NCBI GenBank assembly: GCA_020201275.1
Contig: JAIVHB010000165.1
Coordinates: 1 to 37,177 of the forward strand
DNA: 37,177 nucleotides
Source of the DNA: Rhodothermaceae bacterium
Lineage (GTDB): Bacteria; Bacteroidota; Rhodothermia; Balneolales; Cyclonatronaceae
Direction: 5' to 3'
Part shown: piece after piece, positions 7,402 through 28,367 of the stretch
Numbering within the stretch: the first letter of the stretch is position 1
Layout: each line of letters starts with the position of its first letter
Notes under the pieces: generated by a model
The model's input: the letters and a program-made list of their open reading frames with translations, nothing else
Told to the model about the DNA's origin: nothing
Databases searched by the model: none
Made by a program: the position numbers and the translations under genes

Positions 7402-8229
7402 TCACCCGTTGAAGGAGTCGAGCCAGCGGATGGTGTGGTCGAGTACTTCGGTGAATTTTTTCGGCAGGTTGTCGTCAAGGTAAGGATGCGTGCTGCCAAA
7501 TGTGTGGTTGGCTCCATCGATGAAAATCCGGTCTTTTTCGCTGCTAGGGCAGTTTTCGTATAAAATCTGTGTGTGTTCAAAAGATACGGCATCATCGTCG
7601 GTTCCATGAATGAAACAGCAGGGCAGATTCAGATCTTCGTCGTACACCACCCGGTCTACCCGCATGGTCTGGCCGGTACGGCTGTTCAGGATTTCGGTAT
7701 ATCCTTTGGTCTTCCAGTCGTTGATCTGTGCTTCGCTCCATTGTTTGAGCACGTTGGAGACGGCCGCCCAGGTAACGACCATGGTGATCTGATCGAGTTC
7801 TGATGCGGCAACAACCGCTGTATGGCCACCCCGCGAATGCCCGATTACGGATACATTGTGGGGATCCATGGTTACCAGCGACGATTTGATGGTACTGTCT
7901 TTCAGGGCTTCGAGCACACTGGCCACATCCTCGAGATCCTGCGACAGCGTTTCGCGGGCAAACAGGTCGAGGCGGTCAAATTCACAGGGATTGTCTCCGG
8001 TGCCGTTCAGCGAAAAATTCATGGCCAGAACGGCATAACCGGTACTCGCCATTTCGATGCAGGCGTCGGGGAACGTGCCCCAGTCTTTGAAACCCTTGAA
8101 CCCGTGCAGGAACAGTACTACCGGCAGTTCATACATGGCATGGGATGGGGTGTACAGATCGTAAGCAATGGGCAGGCCCTCCGATGAGGGAATGGTTCCC
8201 GAATCTTTCTTTACTGAATTGCTCTTCAT
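7402..8229 (-). CDS. Alpha/beta hydrolase (dienelactone-hydrolase/S9-like)
   Basis: Single-domain alpha/beta hydrolase of 275 residues; substrate unknown. Seen: the oxyanion-hole HGF motif (LFLHGFKGFKDWG, residues about 40-51), the nucleophile elbow GHSRGG with Ser132, an acidic residue in HGTDDDAV (Asp211-213) and the catalytic histidine in DGANHTFG (His242). No signal peptide. Its ATG overlaps the TGA of rluB by the ATGA arrangement (8226-8229), so it is translationally coupled and is the last gene of the scpB-rluB-hydrolase operon. A role linked to ribosome or chromosome maintenance cannot be inferred from this position alone. Typical annotation would be dienelactone hydrolase or prolyl oligopeptidase-like hydrolase. 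Confidence 0.85.
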   Translation of the reverse strand: MKSNSVKKDSGTIPSSEGLPIAYDLYTPSHAMYELPVVLFLHGFKGFKDWGTFPDACIEMASTGYAVLAMNFSLNGTGDNPCEFDRLDLFARETLSQDLEDVASVLEALKDSTIKSSLVTMDPHNVSVIGHSRGGHTAVVAASELDQITMVVTWAAVSNVLKQWSEAQINDWKTKGYTEILNSRTGQTMRVDRVVYDEDLNLPCCFIHGTDDDAVSFEHTQILYENCPSSEKDRIFIDGANHTFGSTHPYLDDNLPKKFTEVLDHTIRWLDSFNG

Positions 8230-9084: not shown

Positions 9085-9627
9085 TCAGGTCGTGGCCGCG
9101 CCGTTACCGGCCGCGCTTCCGTTACCGGCGTTGGATACGAGTTCGGCTTTCAGCTCCAGGATCAGTTGCCGGTGCTGGGCCATGTCGTCGTCCTGCAGAA
9201 TTTCCTCAATTTCGCGCGGTTTGGGCAGCTCGTCGATCGAGTTGATCCCGAAATGTTTCAGGAACGTGCTGTTTGTCTGGTAGAGCAGCGGCCTGCCGGG
9301 ACTGTCATTGCGTCCGGCCACATCCACCAGCTCCTGCGACATTTTCCGGCTCGCGTTTTCATGCTGCAGGAACTGCAGCCAGGGGTGGAATTCACGCCGC
9401 GTGGCAAAGGTATAGCCGCCGCCGATCTGAATGACGGAGAAACAACGGCCAGTATCCTGGTATTCGCGGTTCAGCTCCGCAACGATCTCATCAACCTCGC
9501 CGGGAGTAAGTTCGAAACCGTCTTCTCTGGCCATAATCGTTTCGGCAATCTGCCCGGCACCCAGGGGTTCGGGGTGCGAGAAAATAAGCGATTCAACGAT
9601 GGCTTTGGCCGATATTTCTGTGTGCAT
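9085..9627 (-). CDS. scpB: Segregation and condensation protein ScpB, internally deleted
   Basis: ScpB is the winged-helix (kleisin-associated) subunit of the Smc-ScpAB complex in chromosome organisation. Seen: the N-terminal winged-helix region (AKAIVESLIFSHPEPL...), the link YTFATRREFHPWLQ, and the conserved tail AGRNDSPGRPLLYQT...FLKHFGINSIDELP. Between them the family normally has about 40 residues of the second winged helix (an ALETLAIIAY...PVT..EIE..RGV-like block). Here residue 98 (Gln) is followed directly by ELVDVAGRN, with the junction at about 9333/9334. The frame is preserved, so a shortened 180-residue protein could be made, but the second domain should not fold. No scpA is adjacent, although scpA normally precedes scpB. 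First gene of the scpB-rluB-hydrolase operon. Confidence 0.85.
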   Translation of the reverse strand: MHTEISAKAIVESLIFSHPEPLGAGQIAETIMAREDGFELTPGEVDEIVAELNREYQDTGRCFSVIQIGGGYTFATRREFHPWLQFLQHENASRKMSQELVDVAGRNDSPGRPLLYQTNSTFLKHFGINSIDELPKPREIEEILQDDDMAQHRQLILELKAELVSNAGNGSAAGNGAATT

Positions 9628-10520: not shown

Positions 10521-10635
10521 TGTAGGTATTTTTTAGTTGTTGGTTTAAGGCGCATAATATACGGAAAAACGCCATATTCAATGTCAGGGACTCAAATCAT
10601 CTATTGTTTTAAAAATGGTATTTCTTTGTCTCCCC

Positions 10636-12183
10636 TCACACCGCATCCACATTCACGGTGATCCGCACTTTCGATGCCCCTTTCGGTTTCTCCGACTCAT
10701 AGGCCGCAAACGCCTGGTCGAGCAGGTGTTCGATGGAGGCCGCGCCGTGGGCCACGGGCATCTTCATGAGGCCTTCCCACCGGAACTCATTTTTTATGCG
10801 GTGGATGGCGGCAGGGGCCGGACCCAGAACGGGGATGCCGCCGGCCACACGAATCAGGGCCTGCACGAAGGCCTGGGCCACACGGCCCACCAGCTGGGCG
10901 TCGGCCGATTTGAAGGTGAACTGCACGAGCCGGGAATACGGTGGCCAGAGCAGGTTTTTGCGCTGCGATAGTTCCGCGGCGGCGAACCCTTCGAAATCGT
11001 GGTTCCGGGCATAGACAATGGAGGGATGCTCCGGCTGCCAGGTCTGCAGGTAGACCACACCCGCCTTGGCTGCACGGCCCGGACGCCCCGATACCTGGCT
11101 GAGCAGCTGAAACATGCGCTCCGACGACCGGTACGAAGGGAAGGCCAGCTCTGTATCTGCGTTCACCACGCCCACCACCGTAACATTGGGGAAGTCGAGG
11201 CCCTTGGCCACGAGCTGGGTGCCGACCAGTATCTGGTGCTCGCCGCGGCCGAAACTGTTCAGGATGCGGGCATGAGAATCCTTGCCGCCCGTTGTGTCCT
11301 GGTCCATCCTCAGGATCGATGATCCCGGGAACAGGCCGTCGAGCTCTTCCTCGACCCGCTGCGTACCCGAACCCACCTGTTTTACGGAACCGGCATCGCA
11401 GCTCGAGCAGTTCTGCCCCAGGTTCCGGCTGAAACCGCAGTAGTGGCAGCGCACATGGTTCCGGTATTTATGGAAGGTGAGGGCCACCGAACAGGAGGGG
11501 CACTCCTCGATATGACCGCAGGTTTCGCATTGTACAAACCCGGCGTACCCGCGGCGGTTATAGAGCAGAATCACCTGTTCGTCACGGTCGAGGGCGTCGG
11601 CCATGGCCTGGTAGAGCGGCGCGGCCAGCGGACCGTGCATGCCCGACGACCGGTATTTCTTCAGATCGATGATGTTCACCGCCGGCATGCCGTGGCCGGA
11701 GTGGCGCTCGCGCAGTTTGAGCTGGGTGTTCTTGCCTTTTGAACTGTTGTACAGGCTTACCAGCGAGGGTGTGGCCGATCCGGTTACGATCACCGCGTCG
11801 CTGCGGAAGGCCCGCATGATGGCCACATCCCGGGCGTGATAGCGCGGGGCCGGGTCCTCCTGCTTGTAGGAACTGTCGTGCTCTTCGTCGATGATGATGA
11901 GGCCCGGGTTTTCGAGCGGGGCGAACACGGCCGACCGCGGACCGATGGCGATGCGTTTCTTCCCCTCACGGAGCTGTTTCCAGGCTTCGTACCGCTCGCG
12001 GTCGTTCAGGCGGCTGTGCAGCAGGGCGATGCTGTTGCCGAAGATGCGGTAGAACCGCCGGAGGGTCTGTGGCGTGAGGGCGATCTCGGGCACAAGCACC
12101 AGCCCGGTACGCCCGGCCTCGAGCACATGGCGCAGCGCGTGGATATAGACCTCCGTTTTGCCGCTGCCGGTAACGCCGTGCAT
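10636..12183 (-). CDS. priA: Primosomal protein N' (PriA), C-terminal part of a frameshifted gene
   Basis: Helicase that restarts stalled replication forks by loading the primosome. This reading frame carries the superfamily 2 helicase core: Walker A GVTGSGKTEVY, DEEHDSSYKQ box, GSATPSL motif, and the helicase C-terminal motifs VGTQLVAKGLDFPNV and SQVSGRPGRA. It also carries the eight-cysteine zinc-binding insert (CETC, CPSC, CHYC, CSSC). The first ATG in this frame is at 12183, inside Walker A, but coding clearly continues upstream in the same frame to about 12357 (EGWFTEAEVPAPEE...LLNNSQQEAF). That shows the gene is split by a frameshift rather than starting here. Joined with the N-terminal part (12255-13025) it gives the normal PriA length of about 790-800 residues. 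Confidence 0.93.
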   Translation of the reverse strand: MHGVTGSGKTEVYIHALRHVLEAGRTGLVLVPEIALTPQTLRRFYRIFGNSIALLHSRLNDRERYEAWKQLREGKKRIAIGPRSAVFAPLENPGLIIIDEEHDSSYKQEDPAPRYHARDVAIMRAFRSDAVIVTGSATPSLVSLYNSSKGKNTQLKLRERHSGHGMPAVNIIDLKKYRSSGMHGPLAAPLYQAMADALDRDEQVILLYNRRGYAGFVQCETCGHIEECPSCSVALTFHKYRNHVRCHYCGFSRNLGQNCSSCDAGSVKQVGSGTQRVEEELDGLFPGSSILRMDQDTTGGKDSHARILNSFGRGEHQILVGTQLVAKGLDFPNVTVVGVVNADTELAFPSYRSSERMFQLLSQVSGRPGRAAKAGVVYLQTWQPEHPSIVYARNHDFEGFAAAELSQRKNLLWPPYSRLVQFTFKSADAQLVGRVAQAFVQALIRVAGGIPVLGPAPAAIHRIKNEFRWEGLMKMPVAHGAASIEHLLDQAFAAYESEKPKGASKVRITVNVDAV

Positions 12184-12254
12184 CAGAAAATGGTGGTATT
12201 CACCGGCATCGAGGTATCCGCGGATGGCTTCGAAGGCCTCCTGCTGGCTGTTGT

Positions 12255-13025
12255 TCAGCAGGGCGATCTGCGAGGGATCGTATTCCAGGTCGGGGACCTC
12301 CTCGGGGGCGGGAACCTCGGCCTCCGTAAACCAACCCTCCTTCCAATGGCTTCGAGGGCCTGGAACCAGACGGGCTTTTTCCTGCCTTCGAGCACTTCCT
12401 CAGCCGACTGAAGCCGGATGTTAAAGTCATCCGGCCGGTCGAAAACCGTCACCATTTTGCGTTTTACGCGCAGTTCTGGTTCCTGCCACTGCTGCAAAAT
12501 GCCCCGGCGCACCAGGCTTTTGATGATGCGCTCACCTGCGTCTCCCCACCGCTTCAGCGCTTCCTTATGGTGATACCGGCCCCGTGCCTGCACCTCACCG
12601 AGTATTTCCAGTTCCTCTTTCGAAAAGTTGTTTTCACCCTTCATGCCCTCCGGCGGTGCATCCCCGTCGTGCCCGGCCAATTTCAAATAAACCTCCGCCA
12701 CGAAATTGAGCCCGGCCGGCAGCGACGCCTGCACCGCCTCACCGTGGCTGCAGTAGTAGAACTGCGAGATCCACCGGGTGAGGTCGATCAGATCAGGCGG
12801 CATCACCGGTTCACTGTCGAGGCTGCGGACGATTTCACGAACCTCAAACGCCGGTTTACGGTTGTGGCACTCCGTAACCATGCCGATGGCCATCTGGTCG
12901 CGCAGCGGTATCCACACCCGCATGCCCGGGGTAAGACTGTCGCGCAGACCCTCCGGAATGAGATAGGTAAAAACCTGCCTCACCGGGGTAGGAAGGGCGA
13001 TGTCGGCATACATGTTTCGGGGCAT
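12255..13025 (-). CDS. priA: Primosomal protein N' (PriA), N-terminal part, frameshifted
   Basis: N-terminal DNA-binding part of PriA. Seen: the 3'-DNA-end-binding region (YADIALPTPVRQVFTYLIP; LRDQMAIGMVTEC, residues about 5-60) and the winged-helix region up to about residue 225 (KKPVWFQALEAI). After that, the 30-odd residues (GRRVGLRRPRFPPPRR...) are Arg/Pro-rich and unlike PriA. In the adjacent frame the sequence continues as EGWFTEAEVPAPEE and runs into Walker A. Restoring one base at 12341-12342 (an A/T run) or at 12335-12337 (a G/C run) would rejoin the frames. As read, translation would stop at 12255 without any helicase domain. PriA is a central restart protein, so a real null mutation would be costly. 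Confidence 0.9.
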   Translation of the reverse strand: MPRNMYADIALPTPVRQVFTYLIPEGLRDSLTPGMRVWIPLRDQMAIGMVTECHNRKPAFEVREIVRSLDSEPVMPPDLIDLTRWISQFYYCSHGEAVQASLPAGLNFVAEVYLKLAGHDGDAPPEGMKGENNFSKEELEILGEVQARGRYHHKEALKRWGDAGERIIKSLVRRGILQQWQEPELRVKRKMVTVFDRPDDFNIRLQSAEEVLEGRKKPVWFQALEAIGRRVGLRRPRFPPPRRSPTWNTIPRRSPC

Positions 13026-13289
13026 GGGGGAGAGCTTTTTGCGTGGTTTACGGGTGCATCAAATATCACATATCCCGGAGAGGGGAACAAATCTAACATA
13101 AAGTACGGATGCTCGTTCCGGCCACCATACCCGCTTTGTTTTACTGTCCGAACCGGATACGATGTAATATCCCATCGTTTGATATCTTACATTTATGCTC
13201 AACATTATGTAACCTGTAGTCATTGGCCCGCATATATTTTTCACTATCAATCCCTGGCAGATATAACTCACTAACCCGGTTTTTTAAAC

Positions 13290-14831
13290 ATGAAAATACC
13301 CAGCCTGATCCTCCGGCAGCTCTACAATTACGGAAGTTTGAAGAACACCGAATACGGGGTTCAGTTCAGTCTGAAGAACCGCCTTTCCGAAGCCACCCTG
13401 GTCGGTATCTATGACATCACCCTGAACGGCAGCGAGATCCCGGCCGACAAGGTGACGCTGCGCTTCGGCAACGGGCTGGCCCTGCAGCCACGGCAGGTGT
13501 CGCCCGAGTCGCCGGTGAACCTGGGTCTCAGGGATGTGGTGCAGATCGATGTGCAGACCGATAACCTGCCCAGTGGTAAACACAAGGTGGGCATCACGTT
13601 TTTGTCGGAGAATTTCGGGAAGCTGGCCCTGAGCGTGGAAGACGCCCTGCACGACAACGGGGCAGACCGTGTAAAAATTCCGGTCGACAAGTCGGATGAT
13701 TACAGCGATCAGGCAATCAAAAGCCGGCAGACATTCGTGGAGCAGTTTAGTGGCAAAAAACTACAACATTTGCCGAAATATTCATTTGATCCGGCCATTA
13801 CACAAGGTAACGTGGAGGCGTTTACCGGCGTGGCACAGGTGCCGGTTGGCTTTGCCGGTCCGATACGGGTGAACGGTGAGCACGCAAAAGGGGATTTCCT
13901 GGTACCGCTGGCCACCACCGAGGGCACGCTGGTCGCCTCCTACAATCGGGGCATCAAGGTGGTGAACCTGTCGGGTGGCGTAACATGCACCGTGGTGGGC
14001 GACAGCATGCAGCGGGCGCCGGTATTCATCTTCGAAAACGCCCGGCAGGCACGCGATTTCGGCAAGTGGGTCGACGAAAACATGGATTCTATCCGCCGGG
14101 AGGCCGAAGCGACCTCAAATGTGGCCAAACTGCAGTATATCGACCACTTCCTCACAAACAAGTTCGTCTACCTGCGGTTCAATTACTTCACCGGGGATGC
14201 AGCCGGCCAGAACATGGTGGGCCGCGCCACCTTCGCCGCCTGCAGCTGGATCATGGACAGCTACAAGGGGATTTCACGCTTTTTCCTGGAGTCGAATTTC
14301 GCCACCGACAAAAAGGCCTCCCAGGTGAACATCATGCGCACGCGCGGCAAGCGGGTTACGGCGGAGGCGGTACTTAAGCGGGATGTTCTCATTCAGCACC
14401 TGCGTGCCGATCCGGAGGTGCTCGACTACCAGAACCGGGTGGCAACCGTCGGTGCGTTCATGTCGGGCGCGAACAACAACGGCGCCCACTCGCCGAACGC
14501 CATAACCGCCATGTTTATCGCCACCGGGCAGGATGTGGCCAACGTTTCAGAGTCGTCGGCGGGCATCCTCTATTCGGAGGTAACACCGGAGGGTGATCTG
14601 TACCTGTCGCTCACCATCCCCTCACTAATTGTGGCCACCTACGGGGGCGGCACTGGCCTGGCCACACAGCGCGAATGCCTCGAACTTATGGGTTGCTACG
14701 GCAAGGACAGGGTGAACAAATTCGCGGAGATCATCGCCGGAGTGGCACTCGCCGGCGAGCTGTCGCTTGGTGCCGCGATTTCGTCACTCGACTGGGTGTC
14801 GAGTCATGAAGAGTACGGGCGGAACAGGTAG
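13290..14831 (+). CDS. mvaA: Hydroxymethylglutaryl-CoA reductase (class I-like)
   Basis: Reduces HMG-CoA to mevalonate with NAD(P)H, the committing step of the mevalonate route to isoprenoids. The catalytic domain starts near residue 155. Seen: the catalytic Glu176 in GNVEAFTGVAQVPVGFAGP; TTEGTLVASYNRG; the NAD(P)-type motif GDAAGQNM; the catalytic lysine in FATDKK (Lys341); Asp415 in ATGQDVANV; TYGGGTGLATQ; and a C-terminal histidine in SSHEEYGRNR (His506). The DKK motif and C-terminal SHxxxxRNR agree with class I enzymes. Residues 1-130 form an extra strand-rich N-terminal region that I do not recognise. It is divergent from priA across a 264 bp gap that should hold both promoters, and converges on the yifB gene with a 2-base gap. 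Confidence 0.93.
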   Translation: MKIPSLILRQLYNYGSLKNTEYGVQFSLKNRLSEATLVGIYDITLNGSEIPADKVTLRFGNGLALQPRQVSPESPVNLGLRDVVQIDVQTDNLPSGKHKVGITFLSENFGKLALSVEDALHDNGADRVKIPVDKSDDYSDQAIKSRQTFVEQFSGKKLQHLPKYSFDPAITQGNVEAFTGVAQVPVGFAGPIRVNGEHAKGDFLVPLATTEGTLVASYNRGIKVVNLSGGVTCTVVGDSMQRAPVFIFENARQARDFGKWVDENMDSIRREAEATSNVAKLQYIDHFLTNKFVYLRFNYFTGDAAGQNMVGRATFAACSWIMDSYKGISRFFLESNFATDKKASQVNIMRTRGKRVTAEAVLKRDVLIQHLRADPEVLDYQNRVATVGAFMSGANNNGAHSPNAITAMFIATGQDVANVSESSAGILYSEVTPEGDLYLSLTIPSLIVATYGGGTGLATQRECLELMGCYGKDRVNKFAEIIAGVALAGELSLGAAISSLDWVSSHEEYGRNR

Positions 14832-14833
14832 GC

Positions 14834-16372
14834 TCATAAAAGCCAGCCCTCGCGATCGAGGCTACGGTACTGGATGGCTTCGGCAACGTGTTCGGCCCGG
14901 ATTTCTTCGGAGGGCTCGAGATCGGCGATGGTCCGGGAAACTTTCAGGATGCGGTCGTATGCACGGGCCGACAGACCCAGAACGGTGATCGCCTTTTTGA
15001 GTATGGAATAGCCCGCTTCGTTAAGCCGGCACATTTTGCGCGCCATCCTGCCCGACATGTGCGCGTTGCAGTGGATGTTCATGCCCGTAAACCGGCGGTG
15101 CTGATGCTTGCGGGCCCCGATCACCCGCGCTCTCACCGACGCCGAGCCCTCACCCATCGACCGGCTGGTAAGCTCATCGAACCCCACCTTGTTCACCTCT
15201 ACATGCAGGTCGATGCGATCGAGCAGCGGCCCGCTGATTTTCCCAAGATACCGCTGCATCTGGGTTCCCGTAATCCCGTTCATAAGATCGGGATTGTACC
15301 AGTCGCCCCCGGGTGAGGGGTTCATCGATGCCACCAGCATGATCTTGCTGGGATAGTTCACACTCAGCCGTGACCGCGATATGCTCACATGCCCGTCTTC
15401 AAGAGGCTGGCGCAGAACCTCAAGTGCGCTTCTCCTGAACTCGGGCAGCTCGTCAAGGAACAGCACCCCGTTGTGGGCCAGTGATATTTCACCCGGCATC
15501 GGTATGCTCCCGCCCCCCACCAGGGCCACATCCGATATGGTATGATGCGGTGCCCGGAACGGGCGTCTCGATATGAGCGCCCTCCCGGTAGACAACAACC
15601 CCGAAACGGAATGGATCTTAGTCGTTTCCAGGGCTTCCGGCAAGCTCAGCGGCGGCAGAATCGTGGGGATACGCCTCGCCAGCATGGTCTTCCCAGATCC
15701 CGGCGGTCCAACAAGCAGAATATTATGTCCGCCTGCTGCGGCCACCTCGAGCGCCCTTTTCACATTTTCCTGGCCCTTTACATCCGAAAAGTCGACCACA
15801 TCGCCGGTCTGATCGCGCATGAAAATGGCGTTCAGGTCGATGCTTACGGGCGCCTTCACCTGCGGCATCCTGAACCACTGCACCGTATCGGCCAGCTTTT
15901 TGAACGCGAACACCTCCATGCCCTCCACCACAGCGGCCTCACCGGAATTGGTCTCTGGCACGATCACCCTTTTGAACCCCTTTTTCTTCGCTTCCACCAC
16001 CACCGGCAGCACCCCCTTCACCGGCCTGATGTACCCGTCGAGGGCCAGTTCACCGAGGATGATGCTGTCGGCAAGCTGGTCGCCGGGAATCTGCCCACTC
16101 ACGGCCAGCAGCCCGATGGCGATGGGCAGATCGAAGGCGCTCCCCTCCTTGGGCAGGTCGGCCGGGGCCAGGTTTATGGTGAGCTTACCCCGTGGCATCT
16201 CGACACCCGAGTTCACCATCGCGGCCTCAATCCGGTCTCTCGACTCCCTGATTGAACGGTCGGGAAGGCCCACCAGATAATAATTGGGGATGCCCGGCAG
16301 TTTATTAACTTCAACATCTATGATATGGGCATCAACCCCAAACGTGGATGCGCAGTAGACATGAGAAAGCAT
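14834..16372 (-). CDS. comM: YifB/ComM family Mg-chelatase-like AAA+ ATPase
   Basis: AAA+ ATPase of the YifB family; the Vibrio/Haemophilus homologue ComM is a branch-migration helicase used in natural transformation. Seen: the N-terminal Lon-like S5-type domain (VDVEVNKLPGIPNYYLVGLPD-type region, residues about 15-180), Walker A GPPGSGKT, Walker B VLFLDELPEF, the arginine-finger region, and the C-terminal ComM domain (LSARAYDRILKVSRTIADLE). The ATG at 16372 (MLSHVYCASTFG) is preferred over an in-frame start at 16420 because family members begin there; length is then 512 residues, typical. It converges with HMG-CoA reductase with two bases between stop codons. Complete. Confidence 0.93.
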   Translation of the reverse strand: MLSHVYCASTFGVDAHIIDVEVNKLPGIPNYYLVGLPDRSIRESRDRIEAAMVNSGVEMPRGKLTINLAPADLPKEGSAFDLPIAIGLLAVSGQIPGDQLADSIILGELALDGYIRPVKGVLPVVVEAKKKGFKRVIVPETNSGEAAVVEGMEVFAFKKLADTVQWFRMPQVKAPVSIDLNAIFMRDQTGDVVDFSDVKGQENVKRALEVAAAGGHNILLVGPPGSGKTMLARRIPTILPPLSLPEALETTKIHSVSGLLSTGRALISRRPFRAPHHTISDVALVGGGSIPMPGEISLAHNGVLFLDELPEFRRSALEVLRQPLEDGHVSISRSRLSVNYPSKIMLVASMNPSPGGDWYNPDLMNGITGTQMQRYLGKISGPLLDRIDLHVEVNKVGFDELTSRSMGEGSASVRARVIGARKHQHRRFTGMNIHCNAHMSGRMARKMCRLNEAGYSILKKAITVLGLSARAYDRILKVSRTIADLEPSEEIRAEHVAEAIQYRSLDREGWLL

Positions 16373-26427: not shown

Positions 26428-27588
26428 TTAGGTATTGAAAACAATGACCGGACAGGCTGCATTTCGGATAATACTCTCCACCCGGGGTCCAAGATAGAGC
26501 CTGTCGGATCCCGGACGGATGTTGGTACCGACAATAATAAGATCAATTTTTCTGCTGTCTGCAATTTCGATGATGGTTTCTTCCGGACTATCCCCTTTTT
26601 TTACCAGTCCTTCCGTTTTAACACCGAACGCCTCACCAAGCTTTTGCAATTCACGGACGGCCTCCGTGGCAAAATTGAAGATATTTTCAACCTGCTGTTC
26701 GCGTATATAACCCGTCAAATTAGAATCTGTCGGTGCCACAATCAATGCAAGCACCTCTTTCTCAGGATCCGTTTCTGCCATGATGAAGGCCAAATCCGCC
26801 GCATTTTTCGCAGCCTGGCTACCGTTTGTTGGCACCATAATGCGTTTGGGCGCCCAGTCGCTGCTGATATTTTCCGATTTGACGATCATGGTGGGGCAGG
26901 GAACCATACGAACAAGGTAATCGATGATGGAACTGAATAAATGCTTGCTGTCGGGTGCATTCTCAGTTCCACCGATTACAAGAAGGTCATAATCCTTTTT
27001 GGATTCATCCAGAATTGCCTCACCAGGTTCATCACTTTTCACCACTTTTGTGGTGATTTCCATTTGTGTAAAGAATTTTGACAATTCCGTGAGATAGTCA
27101 TCACATTCCGATTTGTTATTCTCTCCCGATACCGTCATAAGTGTTACAGACAGATGACGGTCCTGACCGAGCATTTCCAGAATCGCGGCCTCAATAGATT
27201 GCAGTGCGGTGTTGTCGGGTAGCTCCTTCCTTACCCTCACCGGAAGCAAAATTCTGTGGATATCGGCCACCAGGCTGTGCGATTCGAGTTCCTCCTTTTT
27301 GAGCCGCTGCTTCTCTTCATCACCAATCGTAACTCTTTTCAGCACCCATCGAAGGGCTAACGGTGCCATAAGTGATGTAGAAATGGCCATCACCACAATG
27401 ATGGAAAACATGTCCTGTGAAAGGATGCCAAGCCGGAGACCTATGGTTGCTATGATGATTTCCATGGCACCACGCGCATTAAGGCCGGCACCGAAGCTGA
27501 GGGCGGTCCAGTGATCTTTGCCGCCGATTAGCCTGGCCCCGGCATAGGTACCCACTACTTTACCTATAGTGGCAATAGCGCACCCCAC
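26428..27588 (-). CDS. CPA2 cation/proton antiporter, C-terminal fragment with two UspA domains
   Basis: Second half of a Kef/NhaS3-type antiporter. Seen: the end of the exchanger domain (AIATIGKVVGTYAGARLIGG, LSFGAGLNARGAMEIIIATIGL, IIVVMAISTSLMAPLAL; residues about 4-85), followed by two universal-stress-protein domains. The first (about 105-230) includes DLLVIGGTENAP; the second (about 245-385) includes KRIMVPTNGSQAAKNA and DLIIVGTNIRPGSDR, a nucleotide-binding-type loop. The apparent GTG start at 27588 overlaps the upstream fragment and is probably not a real initiator. Compared with complete relatives, about 70 residues (several membrane helices) between FLWGA of the upstream frame and AIATIGK here are absent, and the frame is shifted. 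UspA domains probably sense nucleotides or stress (inference). Confidence 0.87.
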   Translation of the reverse strand: MGCAIATIGKVVGTYAGARLIGGKDHWTALSFGAGLNARGAMEIIIATIGLRLGILSQDMFSIIVVMAISTSLMAPLALRWVLKRVTIGDEEKQRLKKEELESHSLVADIHRILLPVRVRKELPDNTALQSIEAAILEMLGQDRHLSVTLMTVSGENNKSECDDYLTELSKFFTQMEITTKVVKSDEPGEAILDESKKDYDLLVIGGTENAPDSKHLFSSIIDYLVRMVPCPTMIVKSENISSDWAPKRIMVPTNGSQAAKNAADLAFIMAETDPEKEVLALIVAPTDSNLTGYIREQQVENIFNFATEAVRELQKLGEAFGVKTEGLVKKGDSPEETIIEIADSRKIDLIIVGTNIRPGSDRLYLGPRVESIIRNAACPVIVFNT

Positions 27589-28367
27589 AAAAACGTAAGC
27601 ACGATTACCAGGGTAAGAAGACGGTCGCGGCTGCGCACCTCATCCTGCACATAAACAAGCAGTTTTCCGACTATCCAGCGGCCAATGGTAAAACTGAATA
27701 CCAAAAATGCCAGAACACTGCCCACTATCTGCAACACACTTCCCGCAGACACTGCATTGCCGGCAGCCAGACCTGCCACTATCGAGAGCAGTATCCACCC
27801 CGTCGTATCATCACTCATCCCGGCGGCAAGTATGGTCTGACCGATATCGCGCCGCATCAGGTTCATGTCCATCAATACCTTCGCAATAACCGGGATGGCC
27901 GATATCGACATGGCTGTTGCCACAAAAAGGGAAAAAATCAGGCGTTCGTCCGCATCGGCCAGCAGGAATTCAGGCAGGTACTGACCGAGCATGAAACCGG
28001 TCGCAAATGTAACAGTAATGCCACCGAAAGAAACCCCGATGGCCGTTTTGGCGTGCCTTTTGATGAGTTTTATATCTGTTTCCAGCCCTGTTAACAGCAG
28101 CAGGAACATGGCACCCAGCAGGCTGATCACTTCCAGCAGGTAGCCCTGTGTATCATTCTGGGGAATCACCCATTCGCCGACTACGGGAACCAGGGTACTG
28201 AGCAGGGACGGGCCCAGGATGATCCCGGCGAGAATTTCACCCACAACGGATGGCTGGCCAAATCGCTGCGCAATTTCGCCAAGCACACGTGCGGCCATAA
28301 GCAGCACGGCTATCTGGAAAACGAGCATCAGCACATCGTGGTGCGGAGCAGAAGAAAAAACATCCAT
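27564..28367 (-). CDS. CPA2 cation/proton antiporter, N-terminal fragment
   Basis: First half of a monovalent cation:proton antiporter-2 family protein. Seen: about eight hydrophobic helices with the family motifs ARVLGEIAQRFGQPSVVGEILAGIILGPSLL (split across residues about 26-56), LLTGLETDIKLIKR, and ATAMSISAIPVIAKVLMDM followed by GMSDDTTGWILLS, whose acidic pair is the ion-binding signature of this family. The fragment ends in LTFLWGALLPL and stops at 27564. Complete proteins continue through further helices (LEAVLGAFVVG-like) that are missing here. It shares a 25-base overlap with the downstream fragment in a different frame. It is divergent from the second ECF sigma gene across a 226 bp gap. 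As it stands, a functional exchanger is unlikely. Confidence 0.87.
   Translation of the reverse strand: MDVFSSAPHHDVLMLVFQIAVLLMAARVLGEIAQRFGQPSVVGEILAGIILGPSLLSTLVPVVGEWVIPQNDTQGYLLEVISLLGAMFLLLLTGLETDIKLIKRHAKTAIGVSFGGITVTFATGFMLGQYLPEFLLADADERLIFSLFVATAMSISAIPVIAKVLMDMNLMRRDIGQTILAAGMSDDTTGWILLSIVAGLAAGNAVSAGSVLQIVGSVLAFLVFSFTIGRWIVGKLLVYVQDEVRSRDRLLTLVIVLTFLWGALLPL

Follow-up and report, generated by a model that had tools for sequence, protein, structure and literature searches.

PriA (primosomal protein N′, TIGR00595) is the replication restart helicase, and a priA gene split beside a Shine-Dalgarno-like sequence can be set against several described systems. Bacterial deletions are usually mediated by repeats, and misjoined or collapsed scaffold gaps are a general kind of assembly error. 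In −1 ribosomal frameshifting of the dnaX type, Shine-Dalgarno stimulators act 9–14 nt 5′ of the shift site, according to one report (PMC5009743). The gene described here lies in a window of 37,177 nts (the whole stretch of DNA analysed), which is an entire contig of a 3.42-Mb metagenome-assembled genome made of 253 contigs and 95.7% complete (G000:C102).

The gene occupies positions 13025 to 10636 on the minus strand and, as the preliminary description had reported, is divided between two frames. The N-terminal frame (12255–13025, minus strand) stops at 12255 and encodes 256 aa including an out-of-frame tail, with the 3′ DNA-binding domain (PF17764, PriA_3primeBD, E 3.5e-24 in Pfam) and part of the next domain. 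The C-terminal frame (10636–12399, minus strand) is open only from 12399, over 587 codons. The helicase, zinc and C-terminal domains are encoded here, with the Pfam matches PF00270, PF00271, PF18319 and PF18074, and NCBIfam TIGR00595 scores 580.5 bits (cut-off 230.35). Its first listed start codon is at 12183, just ahead of the Walker A motif. The window thus has no continuous priA frame, whereas in the congener priA is a single frame of 822 codons. The N-terminal half was not found a second time in the genome to which the window belongs.

The congener, which matches the record RECM01000161.1 of Balneolaceae bacterium DLM2.Bin41 at 100% identity, was the sole one compared. Two gap-free blocks align to it, 10633–12344 at 95.2% and 12346–14832 at 92.9%, and between them 79 bp of the congener are absent, at a junction located at 12344/12345 with a placement uncertain by 1 nt. 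The absent stretch corresponds to 26 residues and one base between the 3′ DNA-binding domain and the helicase, in what we take to be the winged-helix region. In a search among 59 relatives, 56 gave a priA match, with an internal stop in none of the matches listed. Of 39 loci entered in an alignment, 37 gave an intact frame, L045 and L046 being dropped with the frame-finding motif unmatched; these 37 loci are not 37 independent species, and some may be one genome taken from two collections. All 37 have residues at the missing stretch, 26 to 30 in the 36 that were counted, the congener being the reference row. The missing piece was not found elsewhere in the window's genome.

These observations bear directly on the proposal that a single base had been lost and that restoring it would rejoin the two halves with normal spacing. 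A one-base sequencing or consensus error would agree with the one-step difference between the two frames. However, repairing one base would leave a gene without any residues where the aligned relatives have 26–30, and at this position the congener is longer by 79 bases. Moreover, the small indels listed for the aligned part of the window are intergenic or at the margins of genes, by visual comparison with the list of open reading frames, and none is found inside a gene, save two single-base differences close to where the gene at 1769 is listed to start. A one-base indel was hence rejected as the main cause, and an error of this kind is very improbable. The preference for a plain indel over recoding was sound, but the indel consists of 79 bases lost cleanly and not of one homopolymer base. 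Local features of the site were also considered. The congener stretch folds no more strongly than shuffled sequences (z −0.42), which does not support strand structure as a cause, no Rfam match was obtained in the window that would indicate a structured RNA at the priA site, and the absence of a direct repeat at the junctions led to the rejection of a repeat-mediated deletion. Further along the window, synteny with the congener contig ends at 14832–14843, and the genes that follow have their matches about 40 kb away on that contig.

The AGGAGG noted beside the break is present on the coding strand (12336–12341, minus strand) and had been put forward as a possible stimulator of programmed −1 frameshifting. 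It falls within conserved Arg-Lys-Glu-Gly codons and is ordinary coding sequence common to the intact gene of the congener. Indeed, the coding strand of priA contains four AGGAGG (11856, 12237, 12297 and 12336), with counterparts in the unbroken congener gene at 1485, 1866, 1926 and 1965. The window as a whole contains 20 AGGAGG against 14.5 expected, a number reached by 10 of 100 shuffles. The lack of a slippery heptamer, already remarked upon, holds: no X_XXY_YYZ heptamer occurs in the overlap of the two priA frames, and since the AGGAGG is shared with an intact congener as well, programmed frameshifting does not fit. The sole A_AAG-type codon upstream (12377) sits 5′ of the AGGAGG, which is the wrong order under the 9–14 nt rule (PMC5009743). 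With no heptamer and the elements in this order, recoding is unsupported, and the priA break is not a recoding site.

Production of PriA from the split gene, by AGGAGG-stimulated −1 frameshifting or by internal initiation, would draw on the −1 step that connects the two frames in their coordinates and on the position of the AGGAGG at the junction. Against it, the 26 residues would be missing from a frameshifted product too, and internal initiation would begin no earlier than 12183, at the Walker A motif. Conservation of the frame break in relatives had been named beforehand as an observation that would favour recoding; the break is not conserved, and all 37 aligned relatives have a continuous priA frame. 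None of the literature matches listed on frameshifting mentions priA. Recoding is the least probable of the explanations considered, to the point of being almost negligible.

Other genes of the window carry similar losses. A second clean junction, at 9333/9334, lacks 114 bp of the scpB core present in the congener, and scpB (9085–9627, minus strand) encodes 180 aa against 218 aa in the congener. In the solved ScpB homologue 1t6s, the residues removed are present, flanked by two stretches that match. At a third junction (7636/7637), 45 bp are absent relative to the congener from an alpha/beta-hydrolase gene (7402–8229, minus strand), which encodes 275 aa against 290 aa. Furthermore, a sodium/proton antiporter with universal-stress domains (26428–28367, minus strand) is divided between frames 28367–27564 and 27639–26428 and is split in the same manner as priA. 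It lacks the middle of the transporter domain, Pfam positions 9–221 and 297–374 of 375 being covered; the match of the first frame to the solved transporter 5bz2 ends at residue 193, and that of the second to 4bwz begins at residue 298. The congener has no matching stretch across most of this gene.

The comparison was extended to 105,371 aligned bases, covering 45 regions of the window's genome and 84 of the congener, and clean losses of 40 bp or more were counted. Nine were found in the window's genome (79, 45, 114, 92, 138, 153, 225, 100 and 99 bp) and two in the congener (142 and 78 bp), a difference with a one-sided binomial P of 0.033. At a threshold of at least 20 bp, there were 18 losses in the window's genome, of which eight were dropped for being shorter than 40 bp and one (44 bp) for a poorly matching flank, and three on the side of the congener, of which one was dropped as shorter than 40 bp. 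Eight of the nine losses touch genes: priA, scpB and the hydrolase within the window and, outside it, a flavin oxidoreductase, a sensor kinase, a TonB-dependent receptor, an acyltransferase-like protein and two sugar permease genes, the names outside the window having been read by eye from translations. The sensor kinase is without the stretch bearing the ATP-binding asparagine motif, and the 225-bp loss (G000:C101, L083 about 9818) runs across the border of two sugar-permease genes, so that the tail of the first is fused to the beginning of the second and both are damaged. The direction of change was set by third parties for priA (37 relatives) and scpB (the solved homologue), and the other seven losses are defined against the one congener. 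Among the regions compared, a sequence of about 180 bp (G000:C108, L089 9766–9961) matches many congener contigs in both orientations and is possibly a dispersed palindromic repeat.

Since many other genes carry similar clean losses, the break in priA would most likely be an assembly join. The preliminary description therefore appears right to us in suspecting an error, although by another route than a miscalled base. We consider it likely, from sequence comparison, that contig ends were joined at this point without overlap or filler during assembly, and the organism itself probably has an intact priA. Two pieces of sequence would have been placed end to end, dropping 79 bp; as this amounts to 26 codons and one base, the two halves of priA would come to lie in different frames. 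The exact step is a guess, for example a scaffold join in which the gap length was set to zero. We infer likewise that the other losses arose in the assembly and not in the cell. Their recurrence across the assembly, far above that in the comparison genome, points this way, as does the fact that they strike conserved cores such as that of scpB.

The junctions are informative in this respect. Microhomology is 0 or 1 nt at all nine, with a sum of 3 against a mean of 6.6 for random breakpoints. There is thus no excess, and neither slippage at repeats nor an overlap of k-mers is indicated. Because a k-mer join needs an overlap that these junctions do not have, a join at the level of scaffolds is the one we adopt, although real molecules bearing the join would give the same picture. 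Conversely, a k-mer assembler alone would presumably not have joined ends overlapping by 0–1 nt unless the reads carried the join, which favours a real deletion. Some observations fit less readily with an origin in assembly. Two losses also exist on the side of the congener. Eight N runs of 37 to 182 persist in other contigs of the window's genome, among the regions examined; these may be scaffold gaps, in which case filler was not always left out, or else stretches that were withheld. With that reservation, they do not support a blanket removal of all N runs from scaffolds. In the one run that could be measured, 37 N stand for 10 bases in the congener, hence gap estimates are not uniformly too short.

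The main rival is that the population sampled truly carries a 79-bp deletion, whereby priA would be a recent pseudogene and the cell would live without normal PriA, making a 256-aa fragment and possibly also an internally started helicase fragment. The flanks do align cleanly, and the sequence looks accurate at the base level. In addition, six of the nine losses have a length divisible by three (P = 0.042 for random lengths), which would agree with some of them being genuine length changes that passed selection; within single genes the count is four of seven (P = 0.17). However, the same type of event affects several conserved genes within 37 kb, scpB and priA included, and junctions with 0–1 nt of microhomology are unlike the usual repeat-mediated deletions of bacteria. 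Decay of the gene would also be expected to bring small frame-breaking indels inside genes and relaxed selection, and neither is seen. For priA, dN/dS values of 0.18 and 0.05 for the two halves indicate purifying selection on both; the value is also 0.05 for a neighbouring HMG-CoA reductase-like gene (named by eye from its translation). We regard a real deletion in priA as unlikely, albeit well ahead of a one-base error or recoding. If all the losses were real, a process resembling end joining would recently have produced a burst of short blunt deletions (45–225 bp, lacking microhomology) in this Balneolaceae lineage, with priA and scpB among the housekeeping genes struck and with base-level sequence and selection elsewhere normal, and this broader scenario seems more doubtful still.

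The favoured reading, an assembly join, removes a candidate recoding site. Split or shortened genes in this genome (at least priA, scpB, the antiporter and the two permeases) should not be taken as gene loss until they have been checked against the reads. It is also worth noting that comparison with one congener was enough to tell a clean loss of many bases apart from a one-base frameshift, a distinction that cannot be drawn from the frames alone.

With respect to the systems introduced above, the locus resembles dnaX-type −1 frameshifting in its internal Shine-Dalgarno-like sequence and its one-step frame difference. It departs from it in having no slippery heptamer, in the order of its elements and in being unconserved, and the change of frame is explained by the 79-bp loss. 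Compared with PriA itself, the locus retains the 3′ DNA-binding, helicase, zinc-ribbon and C-terminal domains, distributed over two frames, and its helicase part (515 residues) is 98% identical to that of the congener. The difference lies in the 79 bp absent between the 3′ DNA-binding domain and the helicase and in the resulting change of frame, shared by none of the aligned relatives. A likeness, as judged from sequence comparison, would also exist to the misjoined or collapsed scaffold gaps of metagenome-assembled genomes, in which clean losses, here of 45–225 bp in many genes, have random-looking junctions and are set in otherwise accurate sequence.
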